The notes under the pieces are model-generated. The model had not been told where the DNA came from. It saw only the letters and a program-made list of their open reading frames with translations, and ran no database searches. The position numbers and the translations under genes were made by a program. Shown here piece after piece: positions 3,847 through 22,869 of a stretch of 37,680 bases of DNA; position 1 is the first letter of the stretch, and the number at the start of each line of letters is the position of its first letter. Source of the stretch: Desulfurococcales archaeon (GTDB taxonomy: Archaea > Thermoproteota > Thermoprotei_A > Sulfolobales > Desulfurococcaceae). The stretch is from contig JAMOVL010000034.1 of assembly GCA_027067785.1 (NCBI GenBank), positions 1 through 37,680 of the forward strand, read 5' to 3'.

Positions 3847-6800
3847 TTATTTTATCTTCGCGATCACACCTGGTTTCGGCTCATAGATGGTGCCTTCTCT
3901 CTTCAACTTCCTGAGCATCTCATTGGTAAAGTCTCTAGCGAACCCCTTATCCATAGCTTTCCTCACAAGCTCCTTGTACTCGATCTCATCGGTCTCCTCA
4001 AATATCTCATCGATAAACCTTATGAAGGCCTTCATACGCTCCTGTTTGCTTCTCGGCGTACCTACCATTATCGTATCTATATCTATCCTACCAGTCTCAA
4101 CATCTATTCCAGCCCGCTGGAGACTATAGTACATGAGCCTGACAGCTTCTTCAGCATCCTCTATAGTCACCTTATTCTTCAACGCCATCTTCGCATGGGC
4201 TTCGCTAAGTCTAACGAGGGCCTCAAGCTGCCTAGCAGTAATAGCTATCGGTGCCTCCTCCGAGACGCCGCTGGCCCGTCTCATCGAAACAAAGAATTCT
4301 TCGAGAAGATGAACAGCTTCCTGTGTCAGCTGGGGCCTGATATATCTCCTCGCATAGCTGATGTATTTCTTCAAAAGCTGCGGCTCTATCATAGGCTTTG
4401 CCTTCTCTACATTGCCGTGAACAGCTAGTATGTGGCGTGCAAGCATCCTATCTCGTTTCTCGTGAGGTATATCCTGTATTATGAATATAAGGTCAAATCT
4501 AGACAGTATAGGCGGAGGAAGATCTATGTTTTGCCCAATAGATTGTTTCGGATCATACCTTCCAAACTTAGGGTTACCAGCTGCAAGCACAGATGCTCTC
4601 GCATTAAGCCTAGCGACTATTCCTGCCTTCGCAATACTAATAGTATTATGCAGCACAAGGCCATGTGATACAAAGAGATGATAAGGCTCTACAGTGACAT
4701 CATACACCCATTCAACATCATTATTCTCGACAATCTCTTTACCAACAATGATCCTGGGTATATTAGGTTCTCCCATCCTTTTCTCGAAATCCAGAAGTAC
4801 TTGTCTAAGCTTATTCAGAGAATCACCTATCTCGGCGAAGAATTTATGTATGTCTCGACCAGCGGTCAGCATTAATATTAAGGAGTAATGCTCAACCGAA
4901 ACACTGTCAAGACCACCAGCAGTACCTATAAGGTCGCTGAGTATGTCTGACACCATAGACTCCATAATCTCCTCCGTAATCTCCCCGAGAATTATTCTCT
5001 CAAACAATTCTTCCCCAACTAGTTCTCTAAGACCACCTGCAACCGCATACGCTATCTCTAACCACGAATCAGGATAGTCTTTAAGCTTCTCCATAGACCT
5101 CTGTATACGCTGACATGTTCTTTCATCTGTAATGTATTCAAGCAGTTTTTCAAGGCTTTTTGGACCCGATATAATTAGCTCTCCGTTATTAATGAAACTA
5201 TTTATTCCAAGTCTCCAGAGCATTTCCTGAACTACGAGAGCAGCTCTGGGTTCAAGTTTTAGAGATACCATATAGTTGTGACCACCTGTTTCTCTAGAGA
5301 AGAGAAGTGTAAGAACCCTGCTGATAACATCTTTGGATGATACGATTTCATTTATGAAGCCATTCTCGATTTGACCATTAGCACCGATTATGTCATAATT
5401 CCTTAACACCTCGTATTCGTTCGACGAGATCTCTCCCACCAACACTCTATAAACAAGTTCAGACGCTCCCTCCAATCCATACTTCTCGATAAGCTTCTCT
5501 AAACGTGCGCTATATGCAGCTAGAACAGGGTATCTCTTGACTCCAAGAACAATCATATTCGGCTTTACATCTTCGGCTGGAATGACAGAGATTTTTCCTT
5601 CGAGAAACACTACTACGGGATGCTCGGGGGTTACGAGTATTTCACGCCCATTACTAAACCTTAGCTTTACAAACCTGTTCGGAGCCCTATGTCTGCTGAC
5701 TCTATCGGCTTTAACAATGAGCGGTCTACGACTATACAGATCGTATCCTATCAGGAAAACATCATCGGTGAATAGTATCTCTGTTTCTTCTCCACGCAGT
5801 ATCTTCTCATTATTCTCCGCCATAAGAGAATCCACGTATTCACCAATACTTACTAGGCGGCCATCCGCAAGCATAATTTTAAAGCTGGGATGATAGCTCT
5901 GCTGCTCGAGCGCCTCGTGAATAGCGCTTCGATCCTCCTCCCTCATCTTATCGATCTCATCTATTGCTGCGAGGCCACCGTCAGCGAGCACGAGAGCACC
6001 AGCTTCAAGATACCATTCTCCCGTATGTTTATCACGTAGAACGCTAGCGGTGAGACCTGCTGCTGATGAGCCTTTTCCACTAGTATATATTCCTCTAGGA
6101 GCTAGACGGGCAGCATATTGGAGCATCTGTGACTTAGCTGTACCGGGATCACCGACGAGCAGTACGTGGATGTCTCCACGTATCCTCGTACCGTCCGGGA
6201 GGATCTTAGGGACTCCGCCGAACAATTGTAGTGCTATTGCCTCCTTTATGTTCCAATGCCCATAGATTGACGGCGCTATGCTGGCAATTATCTTCTCTCT
6301 TATCCACGGGTCTCGTGCCATCTCCCTGATCTTCTCCTCGTCCTCACGGGTGATCTCTATTTCCTCTAGAATTTTCTGCTGTACATCAACATAGTTGGCC
6401 TCAATATAGAATGAGAACACGGCTTTACTGCCAGCTTTCTGCATGGACGCTGTAGGCATTACTCTTAATATACCAGTTATCGTTATCCTGTCTCCAGGCC
6501 TCGCTATATCGACAAGATCGCCTGTTAGAACAACCTCAATACTTCTCGGTATCTGTCCAGGCGGGATCTCTTCCGGTTTCTCCTGAACAACTATTTTCTG
6601 CCAGTCAATGAACTTCGACTTATCAGGGAGGAGCTGAAACTTGCCTCCTCTACCACATATAGGGCATATAGCTGGCTTCTCGATTCTCTCTCCCATCTCC
6701 CCGAATTCCGGGTAATCGAATTCAGCACCACACTCAGGGTCTAGATGCTTATACCTCGCCTTGACAAGCTTTGCCTCTACCCTCGTGAGCCTTGTCAATA

Positions 6801-7194
6801 TACCTTCAATAGCGATCATCTTACCTATGTATTCGCTGGTGAGCTCTCTCACCCTTATTATCCTAGACAGGTTTCTGAATCTAGGATAGAACTTCTCCAC
6901 TGCTTGAGCATAGTCGGGGTTTTCCTTGAGAAGCAATTCCTTTATAGCACGGCTAGCAGCGTCGAGCGCTATCTCCGGGTTATCCTCAATTATGTGTGCG
7001 AGTTTTCGATCGAATAATGTTATATCATCAAAATCTATGACAAGGCTCTTCTGCCCCATTAACGCCATCTGGGATAATCGTTCACGGTATTTGAAACTCC
7101 TCGTCCTACGATCCATGTATTCCCATAGAAATCTCTTAAACCTAGTCACAAGATCGTCGAGCTCTTGGGTCTGTGTCTCGACATCAAAACTCAT
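3847..7194 (-). CDS. mcm: Replicative minichromosome maintenance helicase MCM, interrupted by an intein
   Basis: Walker A GDPGTAKSQ, Walker B AAIDEIDKM, zinc finger CPIC, GNPKFGRYDP, LSRFDLIFI; extein is 697 aa after intein removal. Confidence 0.97.
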   Translation of the reverse strand: MSFDVETQTQELDDLVTRFKRFLWEYMDRRTRSFKYRERLSQMALMGQKSLVIDFDDITLFDRKLAHIIEDNPEIALDAASRAIKELLLKENPDYAQAVEKFYPRFRNLSRIIRVRELTSEYIGKMIAIEGILTRLTRVEAKLVKARYKHLDPECGAEFDYPEFGEMGERIEKPAICPICGRGGKFQLLPDKSKFIDWQKIVVQEKPEEIPPGQIPRSIEVVLTGDLVDIARPGDRITITGILRVMPTASMQKAGSKAVFSFYIEANYVDVQQKILEEIEITREDEEKIREMARDPWIREKIIASIAPSIYGHWNIKEAIALQLFGGVPKILPDGTRIRGDIHVLLVGDPGTAKSQMLQYAARLAPRGIYTSGKGSSAAGLTASVLRDKHTGEWYLEAGALVLADGGLAAIDEIDKMREEDRSAIHEALEQQSYHPSFKIMLADGRLVSIGEYVDSLMAENNEKILRGEETEILFTDDVFLIGYDLYSRRPLIVKADRVSRHRAPNRFVKLRFSNGREILVTPEHPVVVFLEGKISVIPAEDVKPNMIVLGVKRYPVLAAYSARLEKLIEKYGLEGASELVYRVLVGEISSNEYEVLRNYDIIGANGQIENGFINEIVSSKDVISRVLTLLFSRETGGHNYMVSLKLEPRAALVVQEMLWRLGINSFINNGELIISGPKSLEKLLEYITDERTCQRIQRSMEKLKDYPDSWLEIAYAVAGGLRELVGEELFERIILGEITEEIMESMVSDILSDLIGTAGGLDSVSVEHYSLILMLTAGRDIHKFFAEIGDSLNKLRQVLLDFEKRMGEPNIPRIIVGKEIVENNDVEWVYDVTVEPYHLFVSHGLVLHNTISIAKAGIVARLNARASVLAAGNPKFGRYDPKQSIGQNIDLPPPILSRFDLIFIIQDIPHEKRDRMLARHILAVHGNVEKAKPMIEPQLLKKYISYARRYIRPQLTQEAVHLLEEFFVSMRRASGVSEEAPIAITARQLEALVRLSEAHAKMALKNKVTIEDAEEAVRLMYYSLQRAGIDVETGRIDIDTIMVGTPRSKQERMKAFIRFIDEIFEETDEIEYKELVRKAMDKGFARDFTNEMLRKLKREGTIYEPKPGVIAKIK
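4645..5898 (-). other. MCM intein, 418 aa, degenerate LAGLIDADG-type
   Basis: Extein junction EALEQQ^SYHPSFKIM...VLHN^TISIAKAG; splicing blocks GREILVTPEHPVVVF and VYDVTVEPYHLFVSHGLVLHN. Confidence 0.93.
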
Positions 7195-10179: not shown

Positions 10180-10371
10180 TTATTTGACTAGCCTAAACAA
10201 TCTCAGTCTACCGAAACGTCTCTCCTCAACAACGCCTTTTTCCTGGAGCTCGCGTAGCTTCTTAACAAGCACTCTATAGTGGAGACCTGTTATTCTGGCC
10301 AGCCTCGTAATATTTAGCTCACCGTATTTCTGTAGTGTATCGATAATTAGTTGTTCGCTATTGCCCCTCAT
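10180..10371 (-). CDS. Small winged-helix DNA-binding protein
   Basis: INITRLARITGLHYRVLVKKLRELQEKGVVEERRFGRLRLFRL; 4-nt ATGA-type overlap with cdc6. Confidence 0.6.
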   Translation of the reverse strand: MRGNSEQLIIDTLQKYGELNITRLARITGLHYRVLVKKLRELQEKGVVEERRFGRLRLFRLVK

Positions 10372-11648
10372 CTCCTTCTACCCATGTATTTCTTACTGAT
10401 TTTCTTCTGTATAAGATCAACTACATATTGCTCAAGGAGATCTAAGGGCCCATAATGAATACTAATTAGAGTAGTTCTCCCTCTAAGCCCTTTACCACTT
10501 GTCCTAGCATCTATAACATTTGCTTTCTTCAAGTTCATTATATAACCATACACCTGAGTATGCCTGCGGGGCTGTTGATCGAATTCCTCACATACTAGTT
10601 CGTATTCTTTCTCAACATCGCCCATCTTAACATATGTTTGCCCAGTTCTTCTAAGCAGCCTAATAATAGCCAGCAATATCATGAGTTCGTGTAATGGGCT
10701 ATAGAGAATTGTTTCTGAAATGTTTATTATTTCTCTGCTTGTCCTAGAGATCGCTTTTCTAACATGCTCTATAGTTATCCTGCTACTTCCCTCATGCTCC
10801 GCTGCGTCGCCGGCTAGGAGAAGTATTTCGATCGCGTGTCTAGCGTTTCCTCCGCCGCCCTTGTCGCTGCCCTCATATTCCGCTATAAATTTCAGTACTT
10901 CATCGTCTACAACGCCCGGATAGAAGGCTTGTTCTGCACGATACTTCAGTATATCGTAGAGCTCTTTGCTAGTGTAGGGTTTCAATCGTATCATATGTTT
11001 TAACAGATAGCTCTCAGTGGATGGATCAAGAAGTGATAGCTTAGATGTGTCGAGCGAGATGAAGATGAAGTTTAACCGCTTAAGAGACGCTATAGTATCA
11101 TCGTATGTTCTAACTATGAAATATACTGCATCACTCCCGGCTATACTGGCGAAATAATGGAATTCGTCAAGTGTTATTATCGCGTAAATATTGTTTTCCT
11201 CTAGATGCCATAGAATAGCGTCATACATTTCTTTAACCGATAATCCTCTCTGGGGAAGGGGTACTTCTAGCTGGCGGGCTATCTCGGCTACGACGTTATA
11301 TAGTGTCCTGTTTCTATGACAGTTAACATGAACATATCTGAGATTATAGCCTTTCAGCCGGGCTATCCTGGCAAATTCTCTACCAAACACTCTTGCGGTA
11401 ACTGTTTTTCCAACACCAACACCGCCAACCAATAGTACGCGCTGTGAGAAACTACCAGGGGATATTATTAGGTGTTTGAAAGCTGAAGCCAATAGTTTTA
11501 TTTCTTTCTCTCTATGGGGAAGTTTATCGGGTATGTATTCTGGGGCTAGGCTCTCTCTGCTCTTGAATATTGTCGGTCTGCTAAGCTCTTCTTCTATGAT
11601 CTTCCATGTTTCATTGTCGTCGGAGTTAGGCCAGTTCAATATATACAC
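10368..11648 (-). CDS. Orc1/Cdc6 family replication initiator (GTG start)
   Basis: VLLVGGVGVGKTVTARVF, IITLDEFHYF, C-terminal winged helix. Confidence 0.85.
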   Translation of the reverse strand: MYILNWPNSDDNETWKIIEEELSRPTIFKSRESLAPEYIPDKLPHREKEIKLLASAFKHLIISPGSFSQRVLLVGGVGVGKTVTARVFGREFARIARLKGYNLRYVHVNCHRNRTLYNVVAEIARQLEVPLPQRGLSVKEMYDAILWHLEENNIYAIITLDEFHYFASIAGSDAVYFIVRTYDDTIASLKRLNFIFISLDTSKLSLLDPSTESYLLKHMIRLKPYTSKELYDILKYRAEQAFYPGVVDDEVLKFIAEYEGSDKGGGGNARHAIEILLLAGDAAEHEGSSRITIEHVRKAISRTSREIINISETILYSPLHELMILLAIIRLLRRTGQTYVKMGDVEKEYELVCEEFDQQPRRHTQVYGYIMNLKKANVIDARTSGKGLRGRTTLISIHYGPLDLLEQYVVDLIQKKISKKYMGRRR

Positions 11649-14379: not shown

Positions 14380-15213
14380 ATGAAGACTATGACTCCCCCA
14401 GACCCGCTGAGGGATGAGGAGGGTTTCGCGCCCGGACCGTCATCCCTCGAAGAAGATAGACATGATAAACGCATAATTGTCTCGTTTCCATCGCACCCAT
14501 TAGTGTTTATGTTCTATCTAGTGCTTCTCTTCCCGTTATTTCTAGCCGCACCATATATTTTCGGGTACTTATCATATCTTCTCGGATTACCGAAAATCAC
14601 TGCGTTTCTAATAGGACCACTTATATTTCTTATGAGCCTCGTTCTCAGCCCGATCAATATCGTGATTAAACGGATAAGGACTGGGAGACAGTTACTTGTT
14701 TTTGAGCAGAGATACGTGAATTTCTTCGGGATACCCTTCCCTGTTATAACGCCTAAAATAGTGATGCAAGAAGTAGTCCTTGCGATAAATGTTGGGGGAG
14801 CAATTATCCCTATTACTATGAGCATATTGCTATTGTTCAGAATAGCTATGTTTTCCGCCGTATACTTTGTAGAATCACTCGTTGTTATAGCTATAACCGC
14901 CGCTATATCCTATGCATCATCACGCGCTATACCGGGCGTGGGAATAGCCGTTCCCGCATTTCTGCCTCCTCTAACAAGCGTTATAGCAACAGCCCTCCTT
15001 GTACATGAGACATTTATGGCGATGCCGATAGCGTATATCGGCGGTGTTCTCGGTAGCCTCATAGGTGCTGATCTGCTAAGGCTCAGTAAAGAACTAGAAA
15101 AATTCATTGAACAATACGGTGCAACGATGCTGAGCATAGGGGGAGCGGGCACTTTTGACGGCATCTATCTTTCAGGATTAATAGCATCATTATTTGTACC
15201 GTTATTCACATAA
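14380..15213 (+). CDS. DUF1614-like integral membrane protein
   Basis: Multi-TM; NVGGAIIPITMSILLLF and GVGIAVPAFLPPLTSVIAT segments. Confidence 0.6.
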   Translation: MKTMTPPDPLRDEEGFAPGPSSLEEDRHDKRIIVSFPSHPLVFMFYLVLLFPLFLAAPYIFGYLSYLLGLPKITAFLIGPLIFLMSLVLSPINIVIKRIRTGRQLLVFEQRYVNFFGIPFPVITPKIVMQEVVLAINVGGAIIPITMSILLLFRIAMFSAVYFVESLVVIAITAAISYASSRAIPGVGIAVPAFLPPLTSVIATALLVHETFMAMPIAYIGGVLGSLIGADLLRLSKELEKFIEQYGATMLSIGGAGTFDGIYLSGLIASLFVPLFT

Positions 15214-15557: not shown

Positions 15558-16601
15558 CTATAGTATTTTGCCTAGTTCCTCGTTCTCATAAACTATAGTG
15601 TTATTCCTTGTGTTAACTACTAACCAGTTCTTCTCAGGATCAAATATTATTATCTCACCATAGAGTTCGGAAGCTCTAACAATATCATTAATATCTTCAA
15701 CTCTGATTACTTCTTTATTCCCTTCAATGAATCTACCCTTGAATATTCTTGACTTGTATTTCTGCAGTACCTTACCTGTGCGATATCCGCTGCTATCGTT
15801 AATGGTATAATAAGCTACGGCGCCCAGTGATGAGAGCATTATAGTTGCTGATATAAGGGCTGTGTAGAATGTTTTTTCTCGTAGCCATTCCGTATTGAAT
15901 GAGAGGCCGAGGATCGATGTATTCGTTGGTATGTATGTTGCACTCTCCCTGTTGATGCTTAATGTAGTGTTGTCTATTTTTGTTGTTATAACTCTGTTTA
16001 GTTCATTATAATGAACAGTTATTGTAGGTGTGAATGAGTGTACTTGATATGCGTAATTATAATTTATCGTGAATAATACTTTGTATTTTATCGTTATTGT
16101 GTATCCTATAGGGTGAAGGCCTATCTGGCTATTTACATCTTTTACGAATTTAGTGTATTTATCGAAGGATAAGTACCCTTTATCAGTAAATGTATTATTT
16201 GTGGTTAGCAGGTTTTCGTTGATAATAGGTTTTTTCCACGATGATGTCGATATTTCTACTATTTTGACTGCTTTGATCGATACATTCGTTGGCGATCCGT
16301 AATCGGGGTCCTCACCATACCTGTAATTGATCGTAATATTGTATAGTAACCCCTTGGCAAGCATCATGTAGATAGAACTGCTCTTAATCACTGTCTTGTT
16401 ATCGAATAGTATTGAGGGCTTTATATGATAGGCATAATTGATTTCTGCTCTTGCTTCTAGTATTTTTGTATTTATATTTCTCCTTATATATGAGGGTGTT
16501 TTATATGCTAGGCTGAGTGCAGATGCGGATATTATGAATACCGCCATAGATAGGACGAGTACTACTAGTAGTATTTTCTTATAGTTTTTAATTAACTTCA
16601 T
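15558..16601 (-). CDS. DUF5305-like membrane/extracellular protein
   Basis: N-terminal TM, beta-rich extracellular region, second TM; overlaps the signal peptidase by 14 nt. Confidence 0.6.
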   Translation of the reverse strand: MKLIKNYKKILLVVLVLSMAVFIISASALSLAYKTPSYIRRNINTKILEARAEINYAYHIKPSILFDNKTVIKSSSIYMMLAKGLLYNITINYRYGEDPDYGSPTNVSIKAVKIVEISTSSWKKPIINENLLTTNNTFTDKGYLSFDKYTKFVKDVNSQIGLHPIGYTITIKYKVLFTINYNYAYQVHSFTPTITVHYNELNRVITTKIDNTTLSINRESATYIPTNTSILGLSFNTEWLREKTFYTALISATIMLSSLGAVAYYTINDSSGYRTGKVLQKYKSRIFKGRFIEGNKEVIRVEDINDIVRASELYGEIIIFDPEKNWLVVNTRNNTIVYENEELGKIL

Positions 16602-17778
16602 ATCTATACCACCTTCTAATTAGTTTAATATAATATGATAAAAACAGGAATAGGAGAATAAGTGATACTAGGAATAATAATCCCATGTAGTATGTGCCAA
16701 ACAGATTGGATAATAGTATCAAGGGATAGCCTAGATATGGTATGATGAACATTGTTTTACCGATAATCTTATCCTGATCGATCCTCCACGGATCCGCATA
16801 ATTGTTTGCATCACCCTTCGTGATAACCCGGCTATTTTCAAAGCTGTATATCCTATGAACTATGATAGTACCACTGGTTGAGAACGCTATTATATCTCCC
16901 ACACTGTATTGTTCCATCTTCTTAACTATGACCATGTCGCCGGGATTGATCTCTGGTTCCATCGAGCCTGTTAGAACTACAAAAGAATGTACTCCTGCAA
17001 ACTGGGATATTGCTATAATGCCTAGAATTAGTACTGGAGCTATAGCTTTGATCTTGCTAATTATTCCTATTTCCTTTTTGGGTGTAAGCGTTGGGCTATG
17101 GGTGAACTTAGTGTAATCGAGGATTACAAGGGCAGCTATTAATCCTATCATTAACATAATGCCTGACATGTACGTTTTTATCATAGGCTGTATGGGGAAG
17201 TAGTACCATATGAGATCGACTCCTAGCCTATAGTAGAGTGCGGGGAGAAGACCGTAGAGTATGATAATTATACTTGTAGTTAAATTCATCATTAGTTCTC
17301 TTATGAATAATATACTTGTTTCACCAGCATTTGTCGCTAACTGTATTGGTTGTATCATTATAAACGACATGATTACACTAATGAGTATGACGAACACTAT
17401 GCTCCATTTCTTCAGCATTAATGCCTTTACATGTTCTATGGCCGACAAACTCGTTAGAGTCAGGATAAAGGGTGCTACGACTGCTAGTGGTTCAACGAAG
17501 TATATGCTTTTACCGAATCCAAAGAAAATTCCGGAAAAGAACAGGGGAGCTAGAGTTACTGCTATCATTAGGGGTATATAGGTTGAAATTACATTGTATG
17601 TTGGTTTCTTATAGATTACCCTCCTATATATGATAGTTATTACTAAGATATTCATAGTGATAAGCACTATGTAGAAAGACATACCGTAAAGTATGTTAAG
17701 ATACCTAATTAGATATGTTAATATCAGTAATAGAAACGGTATAATAATCGATAAGTAATCCTTAGTCGATGATAACAA
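16588..17778 (-). CDS. Polytopic S26B (SipW/Sec11-like) signal peptidase
   Basis: VVLTGSMEPEINPGDMVIVKK, VGDIIAFSTSGTIIVHRI, VITKGDANNYADPW. Confidence 0.9.
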   Translation of the reverse strand: MLSSTKDYLSIIIPFLLLILTYLIRYLNILYGMSFYIVLITMNILVITIIYRRVIYKKPTYNVISTYIPLMIAVTLAPLFFSGIFFGFGKSIYFVEPLAVVAPFILTLTSLSAIEHVKALMLKKWSIVFVILISVIMSFIMIQPIQLATNAGETSILFIRELMMNLTTSIIIILYGLLPALYYRLGVDLIWYYFPIQPMIKTYMSGIMLMIGLIAALVILDYTKFTHSPTLTPKKEIGIISKIKAIAPVLILGIIAISQFAGVHSFVVLTGSMEPEINPGDMVIVKKMEQYSVGDIIAFSTSGTIIVHRIYSFENSRVITKGDANNYADPWRIDQDKIIGKTMFIIPYLGYPLILLSNLFGTYYMGLLFLVSLILLFLFLSYYIKLIRRWYRYEVN

Positions 17779-17812
17779 ATTCTATCTCACTTTTTCATTA
17801 TTTTATACAAAA

Positions 17813-17829
17813 GGGTTTGTATATAGGGG
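17813..17829. promoter_or_regulatory. GTTTGTATAT motif upstream of signal peptidase
   Basis: GGGTTTGTATATAGGGG, same core as the tandem repeat at 19267-19292. Confidence 0.35.
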
Positions 17830-17870
17830 TTGAAAAACATTCCCCCTAATTTATGCGGTTAACTTATATA

Positions 17871-18551
17871 TTACCTGCCCGAGGGCACATTACTATCGTA
17901 TTCGTTCCACTGGATCGCATCATAGTATATTATGAATGTTAGATTTGCGTTCTGCGGCATGTCCTGGAGTATTGTTATGTCGAAGCTAATATCGGCTGTT
18001 TGTCCTGGGTGAAGCTGTAATCCGAAGTTGTCTCCCCACCACATGAGTATGTCGGGTTTACCGTCTCCGTTTAGATCAATCATTGTCCCGTTTGCGTTCT
18101 GCTCACTATATACTGAATAGTATGTCGATGTCCCGGTTCCATTGTAGAACCTTATACGCCATATCTTGAGCGGTATTGTTCCCGAGTTTACCACTGTGAA
18201 CCCTATGTGTGTATAGTACCATGGGTATCCATTTACGATTGTAACGTTTAATGCATCATAATCTCCATCACCATCTGTATCGATTAGCTTCACATATGTT
18301 GTTCCGACATCCTTGTTTTCAGGGACCGGTATGATTTCTTTCTGCGGTATTAGCGTATAGTTCACCATTTGGTCAGGTGTATTTACAGGGTCAGTCGTTG
18401 ATACCGTGCCATATTTGAATGCAAAGTCTAGTTTGCCTGTGTTTACATAGTTGTTTATTAGTAGTGTTTGATACCACATTGCATAGGCTACTATTGAGCC
18501 CACGAGCATTACGAGCGCGAATATTCCGATTATTGCGATTTGTTTTCTCAT
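17871..18551 (-). CDS. TasA/AbpA-like secreted pilus or fibre subunit with calcium-loop-like motifs
   Basis: Signal peptide ...GSIVAYA, then MWYQTLLINNYVNTGKLDFAFK; DTDGDGDYD and DLNGDGKPD; C-terminal QWNEYDSNVPSGR. Confidence 0.7.
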   Translation of the reverse strand: MRKQIAIIGIFALVMLVGSIVAYAMWYQTLLINNYVNTGKLDFAFKYGTVSTTDPVNTPDQMVNYTLIPQKEIIPVPENKDVGTTYVKLIDTDGDGDYDALNVTIVNGYPWYYTHIGFTVVNSGTIPLKIWRIRFYNGTGTSTYYSVYSEQNANGTMIDLNGDGKPDILMWWGDNFGLQLHPGQTADISFDITILQDMPQNANLTFIIYYDAIQWNEYDSNVPSGR

Positions 18552-18630
18552 ACATGTTCACCTTTCGTGATTGGAGGTATTACCCCCATGAAAAACTTAT
18601 CATTAACATTATGTTACGTATACACCCTTG

Positions 18631-19203
18631 TTACCTACCAGCTGAGCTAGGTACTTCGTTCCACTGTGCAAATGTTAGCTGTACTTCGAATGAATATGTC
18701 GTTAATTCTTCAGCTGCCTGCTTGACACCTATTGTTAGATAGTAGGTACTGTTCTCATTAGGATGTATTTGTGTATCTTTAGGTATTCTTAGGCTTACAC
18801 AAAGTGCTGTCTTGTTTAAGTCCTCAGATATATGAGGACGAAGCAGTTTAACTGGTATAGTGCCTATATTGGTGACGTTGAATTTTACTGTTACACAATA
18901 GCCTGGATATGCATTTACAATCGTAACATTTAGCTTGATCGTATTGTTTTGGTCATCGTATCTTTCAGGGGTAACGATTACATGTGCGACATCCTTGCCT
19001 TCATCGTTATTGAACTTTTCACCGCACTGAGGATCCGGTCCATTGTCGTTTGTTTGCCATCCACCGAATGCTACACGTACTTCACCTGTGTGAATGTACG
19101 TGTTTATCCGTATAGTTTCAGACCACATGGCTAGTGCTGAGCCAAACGCTACGAGGAGCGCGGCCAGCATTAGCACTCCAAGGGTTTTAGTTAAGGCGTA
19201 CAT
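18631..19203 (-). CDS. TasA/AbpA-like secreted pilus or fibre subunit (paralogue)
   Basis: Signal peptide ...FGSALA, then MWSETIRINTYIHTGEVRVAFG; C-terminal QWNEVPSSAGR parallels the neighbour. Confidence 0.7.
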   Translation of the reverse strand: MYALTKTLGVLMLAALLVAFGSALAMWSETIRINTYIHTGEVRVAFGGWQTNDNGPDPQCGEKFNNDEGKDVAHVIVTPERYDDQNNTIKLNVTIVNAYPGYCVTVKFNVTNIGTIPVKLLRPHISEDLNKTALCVSLRIPKDTQIHPNENSTYYLTIGVKQAAEELTTYSFEVQLTFAQWNEVPSSAGR

Positions 19204-19266
19204 CTTTTCACCTTAGGGGATAGGGTTGTGGATATACTTATATTTAGGAGAGGCAGGTTTTCTCCA

Positions 19267-19292
19267 GAGTTTGTATATGGAGTTTGTATATG
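19267..19292. repeat. Perfect 13-bp tandem direct repeat upstream of the TasA-like genes
   Basis: GAGTTTGTATATG GAGTTTGTATATG. Confidence 0.8.
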
Positions 19293-19435
19293 TATGAATT
19301 CTCTATACAAAGAAGTTTCCGGAAAATAAAATGTCTAAACTATAAAATAAAACAGACCAAAAAGAAGATCTTGTTTTTAGAAAATAATAGGTGTCTTGAA
19401 CCTATATGAAATAAAGATAAATAATTATTGAATGC

Positions 19436-20119
19436 CTAGAGTATTCTCAGCTCTCTAATTGTGAATCTTTCTTTTAGCTGTCTAAAACTATCACATCTTA
19501 ATAAGTTGAATAAGTGCGCCAGGTATCTTTTGACGTTTAATACTTTATCCTCTGATACGAACAAGACCACGTTGTAGCCTGTGTCTAAAGATACGATTAT
19601 TAACCATGACAGGATATGTTGAACCTCGATCTCTGTTGCTTCTTTGGAGAGAAAACCAATTATGTATTCTTTATCCTTTATTTTCAGATATAAGTCGACA
19701 AAATATGTTCTCGCAGACTGGCCTTTAATGCTTGTGCCTAGCCGTAGCGATTGCTCTATGCCGATGCATTCGGCTTCGCTACCTATTTCTTTACAAAATT
19801 CTCGTATGTTGTGTATTAGTCGCTGGTTAGAAACCATCGTGTTTTTCATTATCTTCCTTATCCTCGTAATGAGCATCAGAAGTCTTGCACCGAGGGGTGT
19901 TATTTTGTACATTTTCTTATCTTTTCCATTGCTAACGATTTCTAGGGCACCGTTATTTACTAAATCTGCAAGAATTGTTTCTAGGCTTCTCGTGTTTAGA
20001 TTAGCTGCGTAGAGAATACGTGTTTTCTTAGCGCTTCCCTCTCTTTCAACATATTTAAGAATGGCCTCGATAACCTCTATCTTGTTTCGATTACGTCGCT
20101 CTCTTTCCATCTCGCCCAA
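19436..20119 (-). CDS. Winged-helix transcriptional regulator with C-terminal sensor-like domain
   Basis: KIEVIEAILKYVEREGSAKKTRILYAANLNTRSLETILADLVNNGALEI...YKITPLGARLL. Confidence 0.7.
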   Translation of the reverse strand: MGEMERERRNRNKIEVIEAILKYVEREGSAKKTRILYAANLNTRSLETILADLVNNGALEIVSNGKDKKMYKITPLGARLLMLITRIRKIMKNTMVSNQRLIHNIREFCKEIGSEAECIGIEQSLRLGTSIKGQSARTYFVDLYLKIKDKEYIIGFLSKEATEIEVQHILSWLIIVSLDTGYNVVLFVSEDKVLNVKRYLAHLFNLLRCDSFRQLKERFTIRELRIL

Positions 20120-20288
20120 CTCATAGTTAAGGTAAAAACACCGTGTATGTACATGTTATACATAAAAATACTCTGTTATAAAATTTTTGTATAATTTCTT
20201 CAATTCCAACCACATAGAGTTTCATGGTATAAAACAATATATACAAGCAATTAATTGCAAAGACAAACCATAGGACAGGGAAAAAGCG

Positions 20289-21765: not shown

Positions 21766-22869
21766 GTGGTAAAAACAGCTATAGAGATGTACAAGGACGA
21801 AGTAGAGACGAGTATTATCTATAGAGAGCTTTCAAAATACACAAAGGATCCCGAGATATCAAAGAAACTATTAGAGCTCTCAGAAGTGGAGAGAAGCCAC
21901 GCCGATTTCTGGAAAGACTTTCTAGAAAAAAGAGGCGTTGATCCAACCAGAATAAAAATCAACAAAACACTATTACGTCTCAAAATAGCGTTGTTCAAAA
22001 TACTAGGATACGGCTTAACACTCAAGATCCTCGAGCTAGGGGAAGACGAGGCTATCAAATCCTATTCTAAACTCCTAGGCTCTCCCGAGTTGTCCGATGA
22101 TGAAAAACAAAGGCTTAGAAAGATACTTGAAGACGAGCTCGTACACGAGGAGGAGTTCGAGGAGGAAGAATCTAGGCTTAAAGATTTCCTAATGCATGTA
22201 AGAGACGCTATTCTAGGCATGAACGACGGCCTGGTGGAGATACTCTCGGTATCCGCCGGTTTGGCCGGTGCGTACGGTGATCCAATATATGTTGCGCTAG
22301 GCGGTTCAATCGTCGGCATTGGCGGAGCCCTCTCAATGGCTGTAGGTACGTATATTAGTGTGAAGGCTCAGAGAGATGTGAAGCTAGGCACTCTCGAAAG
22401 GATAAAGTTGGCGGCGAGATACGCCACTAATATATTGGTTGAAAGGGTTAAGGCGAGCTTACTGAAAAGAGGGTACAGCAGAGACGCCGTTGAGAAAATA
22501 GGGGAGGATGCAAAGGCCAACCCGGATATTCTGAGTAAAATACTTGCTGAAGAGGAATACGGTATATCAGAGGAATCTATAGAAAATCCGAGAATAGCTA
22601 GTCTTTACACTGGTATTTTCTATATTATAGGAGCATTCGTACCGCTTATACCATACTTCCTAGGCCTCCCGATACTATATGCGCTTATACTATCGTTTCT
22701 TATGGCTGCATCAATGCTCGCTGTCTCGGGAACGATAGTTGCTATATCATCGGGCCTCACAATAAAGAAAAAAGTCGTCGAACTAGTGTTGTCCGGCCTG
22801 GGATCAGCACTGGCTACTTATGGGATAGGAGCGCTAGCATCGCTACTCTTTGGTATACATACCGGGTGA
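21766..22869 (+). CDS. Ferritin-like (rubrerythrin-type) domain fused to VIT1/CCC1 transporter, MbfA-like (GTG start)
   Basis: N-terminal ExxxxxIYRELSKY...ELSEVERSHADFW; C-terminal VRDAILGMNDGLVEILSVSAGLAGA typical of VIT1. Confidence 0.88.
   Translation: MVKTAIEMYKDEVETSIIYRELSKYTKDPEISKKLLELSEVERSHADFWKDFLEKRGVDPTRIKINKTLLRLKIALFKILGYGLTLKILELGEDEAIKSYSKLLGSPELSDDEKQRLRKILEDELVHEEEFEEEESRLKDFLMHVRDAILGMNDGLVEILSVSAGLAGAYGDPIYVALGGSIVGIGGALSMAVGTYISVKAQRDVKLGTLERIKLAARYATNILVERVKASLLKRGYSRDAVEKIGEDAKANPDILSKILAEEEYGISEESIENPRIASLYTGIFYIIGAFVPLIPYFLGLPILYALILSFLMAASMLAVSGTIVAISSGLTIKKKVVELVLSGLGSALATYGIGALASLLFGIHTG

Follow-up and report, generated by a model that had tools for sequence, protein, structure and literature searches.

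The bundling pili of Pyrobaculum calidifontis, which consist of AbpA, are donor-strand fibres of a thermophilic archaeon. ABPx (here AbpX) of Pyrodictium abyssi forms bundling fibres by donor-strand exchange, which resemble those of ABP and TasA (PMC11952670). The tapA-sipW-tasA system of Bacillus subtilis combines a dedicated endoplasmic reticulum (ER)-type (S26B) signal peptidase with an aromatic residue at P2' and an N-terminal donor strand (PMC9674648, PMC10269814). The subject of this report is a five-gene cluster in the window, i.e., positions 1 to 37,680 of contig JAMOVL010000034.1 (37,680 nucleotides) from the draft genome of a Desulfurococcales archaeon (GCA_027067785.1; 1.13 Mb, 78 contigs). 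The open reading frames on the minus strand from 20119 to 15558 encode, in this order, a winged helix-turn-helix (wHTH) regulator, subunit A, subunit B, a signal peptidase and a DUF5305 protein; the initial annotation had placed all five there. The module is likely to encode an AbpX-type donor-strand fibre whose subunits are processed by the adjacent peptidase. The products are very probably cell-surface protein fibres made of two related subunits joined end to end, kin to the Pyrodictium fibre and distantly to the Bacillus biofilm fibres. The grounds for this reading are homology, the signal-peptide site, gene linkage, conservation and the placement of motifs.

The two subunits and their relation to AbpX

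When A was compared alone with the Protein Data Bank (PDB) using phmmer, the top match was AbpX (9sj2, E=8.9e-6). Family profiles built without AbpX also had AbpX as their top PDB match: the A-family profile reached E=7.5e-15 over positions 28-172, which span the donor segment and the sandwich, and the B-family profile reached E=3.7e-7. (A match of 4.3e-38 with a separate profile, A4, was set aside because A4 includes AbpX.) Genome G073 encodes AbpX itself (100% match over 147 aa), and there the AbpX gene is directly followed by a long peptidase gene of the same type as in the window (E=1e-56). Starting at the Q that follows T-Y-A, the AbpX product runs for 163 aa, the length of the 9sj2 chain; that chain begins just after T-Y-A, and the donor segment is thus the mature N-terminus. 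In 9rhp the WSETLSLSATISTG segment (WSETL...TG) stands at the C-terminal, opposite end of the chain, and 9rhp is presumably a construct in which the donor strand is self-supplied. This placement identifies the conserved motif of the initial annotation as the donor strand.

A and B are paralogues (31% identity, E=5e-20 in BLASTP), as had been claimed for the two adjacent secreted proteins, and neither scores above the cut-off of any curated Pfam or NCBIfam family. The MW.ET motif described earlier proved real and general, its W being invariant in 30/30 relatives of B and 28/28 relatives of A. The proposed C-terminal QWNE...GR signature held in part: W-N-E is invariant among the relatives of both subunits, and the terminal GR is peculiar to the source genome, since same-genus relatives end in SGA or NTLRI. 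Both precursors carry A-x-A directly before M-W. Among the A relatives P1 is Ala in 27/28 and P2' is Trp in 28/28; with the B relatives included, Trp occupies P2' in 58/58, a placement by sequence relative to the predicted cleavage site.

A and B would be exported by Sec and cut after A-x-A by the adjacent polytopic S26B peptidase, freeing an N-terminus that starts with M-W. The N-terminal MW.ETL.IN..V.TG would then serve as a donor strand that inserts into the sandwich of the next subunit, so that chaining could proceed without a chaperone, and the expected product is an extracellular filament of the AbpX (TasA-like) type, held together by donor-strand exchange. Alternatively, A and B could be related to type IV pilins, or be secreted sandwich proteins of another kind (S-layer associated), in either case with no exchange of donor strands. 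Weak matches of the A family to archaeal flagellin (8fk7, E=0.043) and to UpsA (4/28 members, best E=4.2e-4) point that way, but the AbpX matches are many orders stronger and cover both the donor segment and the sandwich, A-x-A is followed by a hydrophilic N-terminus, the partner is an S26B and not a class III prepilin peptidase, and the cluster has no pilus ATPase or platform gene; the pilin-like alternative is therefore considered very unlikely.

Donor segments of A and B covary across lineages. Over 32 loci, the A/B donor identity was 0.59 within a locus and 0.44 between loci, whereas the body differed much less (0.30 within, 0.275 between). In a set of 24 loci restricted to the order, the donor identity was 0.56 within and 0.48 between loci (z=6.2), compared with z=1.5 for the body and z=2.4 for the signal peptide. 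This suggests a shared acceptor groove, with A and B able to join one fibre, although for co-assembly the balance tips slightly towards no. Part of the likeness of the donors could come from gene conversion at the 5' end. In L097, L120 and L127 adjacent A-like paralogues have almost identical donor segments (0.95) on bodies with an identity near 0.3, a pattern suggestive of gene conversion or of strong matching.

The shaft could instead consist of A alone, a homopolymer with accessories, and B could be a minor cap, an adhesive tip or an initiator (TapA-like or Saci_0405-like). At the AbpX locus a lone filament gene adjoins the peptidase gene, TapA of Bacillus provides the first donor strand (PMC9674648), and B is longer than A and has extra loops. 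Set against this, B retains the donor segment and W-N-E end of A and is conserved as strictly as A, and at the loci L097, L127 and L120 two or three consecutive A-like genes encode donor segments that are nearly identical. An A-only shaft is a serious contender all the same, and one that we lean against by little.

Two acidic loops are inserted in B. Loop 1 occurs in 28/30 relatives of B with small variations (e.g., DYDYDGDME in L069) and is absent in L066 and L067, and the three Asp positions of loop 2 are invariant in 30/30. DxDxDG is a general calcium-binding motif (PMC12326000). The loops probably bind Ca2+, which would stiffen B or its contacts; calcium as such we place just short of an even chance. 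Cannula-like hollow tubes of the CanA type, in place of thin bundling fibres, would be a further possible product: the cannulae of Pyrodictium are calcium-driven donor-strand polymers according to the title of a work cited in PMC12326000, and the acidic loops of B fit such a product. CanA was, however, absent from the PDB matches of the A and B profiles up to E=10, and it has no DxDxDG (PMC12326000), which B has; hollow tubes are thus highly improbable.

Several results weigh against an AbpX-type two-subunit fibre. The AlphaFold models, the check that the initial annotation had suggested, are weak, with a predicted local distance difference test (pLDDT) of 62.3 for A (single sequence) and of 70.8 for B (30-row alignment; predicted template-modelling score 0.61), the donor region being among the least confident parts, and Foldseek with both models gave nothing below E 1e-3 (TM-scores about 0.1-0.4). 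No TapA-like or chaperone gene was recognised among the cluster genes with Pfam and NCBIfam (B could play the TapA role). The evidence for the B loops is a sequence motif alone. In the 24 order loci, the donor excess was gone when compared with the nearest relative (0.558 vs 0.552, p=0.6), so the covariation tracks lineage and is no proof of co-assembly. Finally, PF12389 (TasA/camelysin, Peptidase_M73) exceeded its cut-off in 0/232 genomes of the class; AbpX itself fails it (10.1 bits), and the family is therefore non-discriminating. Regarding the TasA/AbpA-like subunits of the initial annotation, the donor-strand fibre core stands via the homology to AbpX; the TasA name does not, given the result for PF12389, and the AbpA chain was recovered by no profile in PDB searches, its presence in the searched set being unverified. 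The bundling or biofilm function that the initial annotation proposed is a possible one.

Signal peptidase and distribution of the module

The peptidase scored above the cut-offs of Peptidase_S24 (34.5 bits) and S26 (28.4 bits) in Pfam and of the archaeal signal peptidase TIGR02228 in NCBIfam (85.1 bits, cut-off 51.85), but below that of the SipW equivalog NF046067 (59.6 bits, cut-off 190); the S26B class of the SipW-like enzyme that had been predicted is thereby retained and SipW equivalence is not. Ser272, His308 and Asp323 are invariant in 30/30 members. Hydropathy indicates about 10 hydrophobic segments, and the S24/S26 domain starts from about residue 244. None of 30 members gave a Pfam match in the N-terminal membrane region (residues 1-240); this region is common to the relatives, which share E..R at its middle.

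The source genome also encodes a short ordinary S26 peptidase (G000:C72), and the long form is consequently an extra enzyme. Nearly all of the 232 genomes had some S26 match, and the long form (best E below 1e-37) was found in 74. The A family occurred in 82/232: A and the long peptidase were found together in 72 genomes, neither in 148, A only in 10 and the long peptidase only in 2 (Fisher p=3.5e-46, relatedness ignored), and some of the genomes with only one of the two are exceptions on short contigs. Short S26 enzymes occur in genomes with and without the module. The long peptidase might be a general second signal peptidase that merely neighbours A and B, and most S26B enzymes accept a broad range of substrates; the tracking of the A family by the long peptidase over the 232 genomes, with the short peptidase present regardless, makes such a general role unlikely.

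SipW, the dedicated ER-type enzyme of B. subtilis, processes TasA, which has Phe at P2', and LepB of Escherichia coli is poor at aromatic P2' residues (PMC10269814). A rule by which P2' Trp directs processing by the long peptidase is offered by analogy, and as a hypothesis only, because the main block in TasA was Trp at P2, not P2' (PMC10269814).

Relatives of B were found in 31/61 related genomes, and the order wHTH-A-B-peptidase-DUF5305 is kept in most of the loci examined. The wHTH gene is sometimes moved or inverted and the DUF5305 gene is sometimes not found. Relatives of the A profile also occur outside the class, in other families of the phylum. Three genomes of a genus which we take to be Pyrobaculum have two adjacent A-profile matches with a long peptidase nearby; in one of them, the proteins have matches to AbpX at 4.9e-12 and 6e-7, and none to AbpA. 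Genomes of a family presumed to be Sulfolobaceae had no A-family match. One solved Pyrodictium fibre thus extends to a widespread multi-gene system. Two carriers, taken to be Thermosphaera aggregans (G021) and Ignisphaera aggregans (G038), belong to species that are both described as aggregate-forming; two species are an anecdote and not a correlation, and they make a possible link to cell aggregation testable.

Further genes were seen at some loci. At L055, L060, L064 and L096 an extra, long TasA-like protein is encoded, either as a product of 327-463 aa from a gene between those of B and the peptidase or joined to B in a fusion of 502 aa; it is possibly a tip or adhesive subunit. Upstream of the wHTH gene, L052, L054, L056, L057, L058 and L059 have an additional gene with a weak likeness to A (186-217 aa).

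Regulator, intergenic motif and other features of the window

The regulator and the DUF5305-like partner were both named correctly at the outset: in Pfam the former scored 58.5 bits with HTH_45 (cut-off 25.5), which also matched 21/21 wHTH relatives, and the latter 32.2 bits with PF17231 (cut-off 29), placing it in that family. The wHTH gene recurs beside the module. The DUF5305 gene overlaps the peptidase gene by 14 bp, and its product has hydrophobic segments near residues 3-21 and 245-263 (hydropathy). The protein, whose outer domain would be flanked on both sides by a membrane segment, is likely a membrane-proximal partner that may anchor the fibre, and its tail of about 85 aa would be cytoplasmic.

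The window has six exact copies of the 8-mer TTTGTATA, all within the three intergenic regions of the cluster; when these regions were shuffled, some 8-mer reached at least six copies in 4/2000. Each inverted arrangement (spacing up to 14) occurs once in the 1.13 Mb genome, and both are in the cluster. A backward control pattern also occurs about once in the genome, so each pair alone is at chance level; the significance lies in the coincidence of place, not in the rarity of each. A G precedes the inverted-motif site. In the same-genus loci L034 and L035, which have fewer motif copies than the window, the block at 17804-17823 is nearly invariant and the block at 19283-19311 is conserved, with one change in one arm. 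A search of other genera for the inverted motif found none, which limits the support for an operator to this genus. Control of the cluster by the wHTH protein is probable, with the inverted TATACAAA sites as a putative operator and a binding that we infer; regulation taken by itself stands a shade under even. The fullest version of the module, a two-component calcium-dependent fibre with interchangeable co-evolving donor strands, calcium-dependent assembly, a specialised peptidase and a wHTH switch at its own operator, is doubtful.

Coordinates of the cluster and its features are summarised in Table 1. Elsewhere in the window, the reading frame of an MCM helicase gene at 3847-7194 (minus strand) is split by an intein-like domain for splicing (PF14890, 45.2 bits, above its cut-off), and a Cdc6/Orc1 gene at 10368-11648 lies near this gene. 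A DUF1614 membrane protein is encoded at 14380-15213 (plus strand), adjoining a TrkH transporter gene, and a rubrerythrin-like domain fused to a VIT1-type iron/manganese transporter at 21766-22869 (plus strand).

Table 1. Positions of genes, protein segments and intergenic motifs of the cluster in the window
Feature	Position	Strand	Size and evidence
wHTH regulator gene, HTH_45, variable C-terminal domain of about 130 aa	19436..20119	-	227 aa, TTG start; Pfam HTH_45
Subunit A gene, secreted AbpX-type	18631..19203	-	190 aa; phmmer and family profile to AbpX
Predicted signal peptide of A, residues 1-25, A-L-A then MW	19129..19203	-	sequence; relatives; AbpX chain start equivalent
Putative donor-strand segment of A, mature residues 1-20, MWSETIRINTYIHTGEVRVA	19069..19128	-	alignment to WSETLSLSATISTG of AbpX
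Subunit B gene, paralogue of A, two inserted acidic loops	17871..18551	-	226 aa; family profile to AbpX
Predicted signal peptide of B, residues 1-24, A-Y-A then MW	18480..18551	-	sequence; relatives
Putative donor-strand segment of B, MWYQTLLINNYVNTGKLDFA	18420..18479	-	profile match to AbpX; donor-segment comparison across loci
DxDxDG loop 1 of B, DTDGDGDYD, residues 91-99	18255..18281	-	28/30 relatives
DxNxDG loop 2 of B, DLNGDGKPD, residues 159-167	18051..18077	-	three Asp invariant, 30/30
Polytopic S26B signal peptidase gene	16588..17778	-	396 aa, TTG start; TIGR02228, active-site residues, hydropathy
DUF5305 membrane protein gene	15558..16601	-	347 aa; PF17231, hydropathy, alignment
Inverted motif TATACAAA-N4-TTTGTATA, upstream of peptidase gene	17804..17823	.	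sole exact pair of this form in genome
Inverted motif TTTGTATA-N13-TATACAAA, upstream of subunit A	19283..19311	.	sole exact pair of this form in genome
Additional TTTGTATA half-site upstream of A	19270..19277	.	not present in L034, L035
TTTGTATA half-site upstream of regulator gene	20186..20193	.	surrounding block largely conserved; one base different in relatives

Comparison with described systems

The Saci_0406 threads of Sulfolobus acidocaldarius (PMC9715654), a signal peptidase I-processed donor-strand filament from the same archaeal phylum, would resemble the product of the window, although no sequence match was seen. The CanA cannulae of P. abyssi are an extracellular polymer from the same order and are divalent-ion dependent, as the window fibre may be, but CanA gave no sequence match and lacks DxDxDG. 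With tapA-sipW-tasA of B. subtilis the window shares the dedicated S26B peptidase, the aromatic P2' residue and the N-terminal donor strand (predicted here), whereas it has no TasA sequence match, does not reach PF12389 and contains no recognised TapA, and its peptidase has a large extra N-terminal membrane region compared with SipW. AbpA likewise forms a donor-strand fibre in a thermophilic archaeon, but no AbpA chain came up in the PDB searches.

The closest system is the AbpX fibre of P. abyssi (9sj2, 9rhp), with a homologous subunit, a donor segment after the signal peptide and an adjoining polytopic S26B peptidase. At its locus (L090) there is a single subunit gene, and genes for B, DUF5305 or wHTH proteins were not recognisable in the vicinity. 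A two-subunit form may already have been described in the primary AbpX/AbpA literature. Relative to the AbpX locus, the module in the window is distinguished by its full set of five genes, a second subunit, calcium-type loops in B, covarying A/B donors and the inverted TATACAAA motif shared among its intergenic regions, and the last three of these are points beyond the initial annotation.

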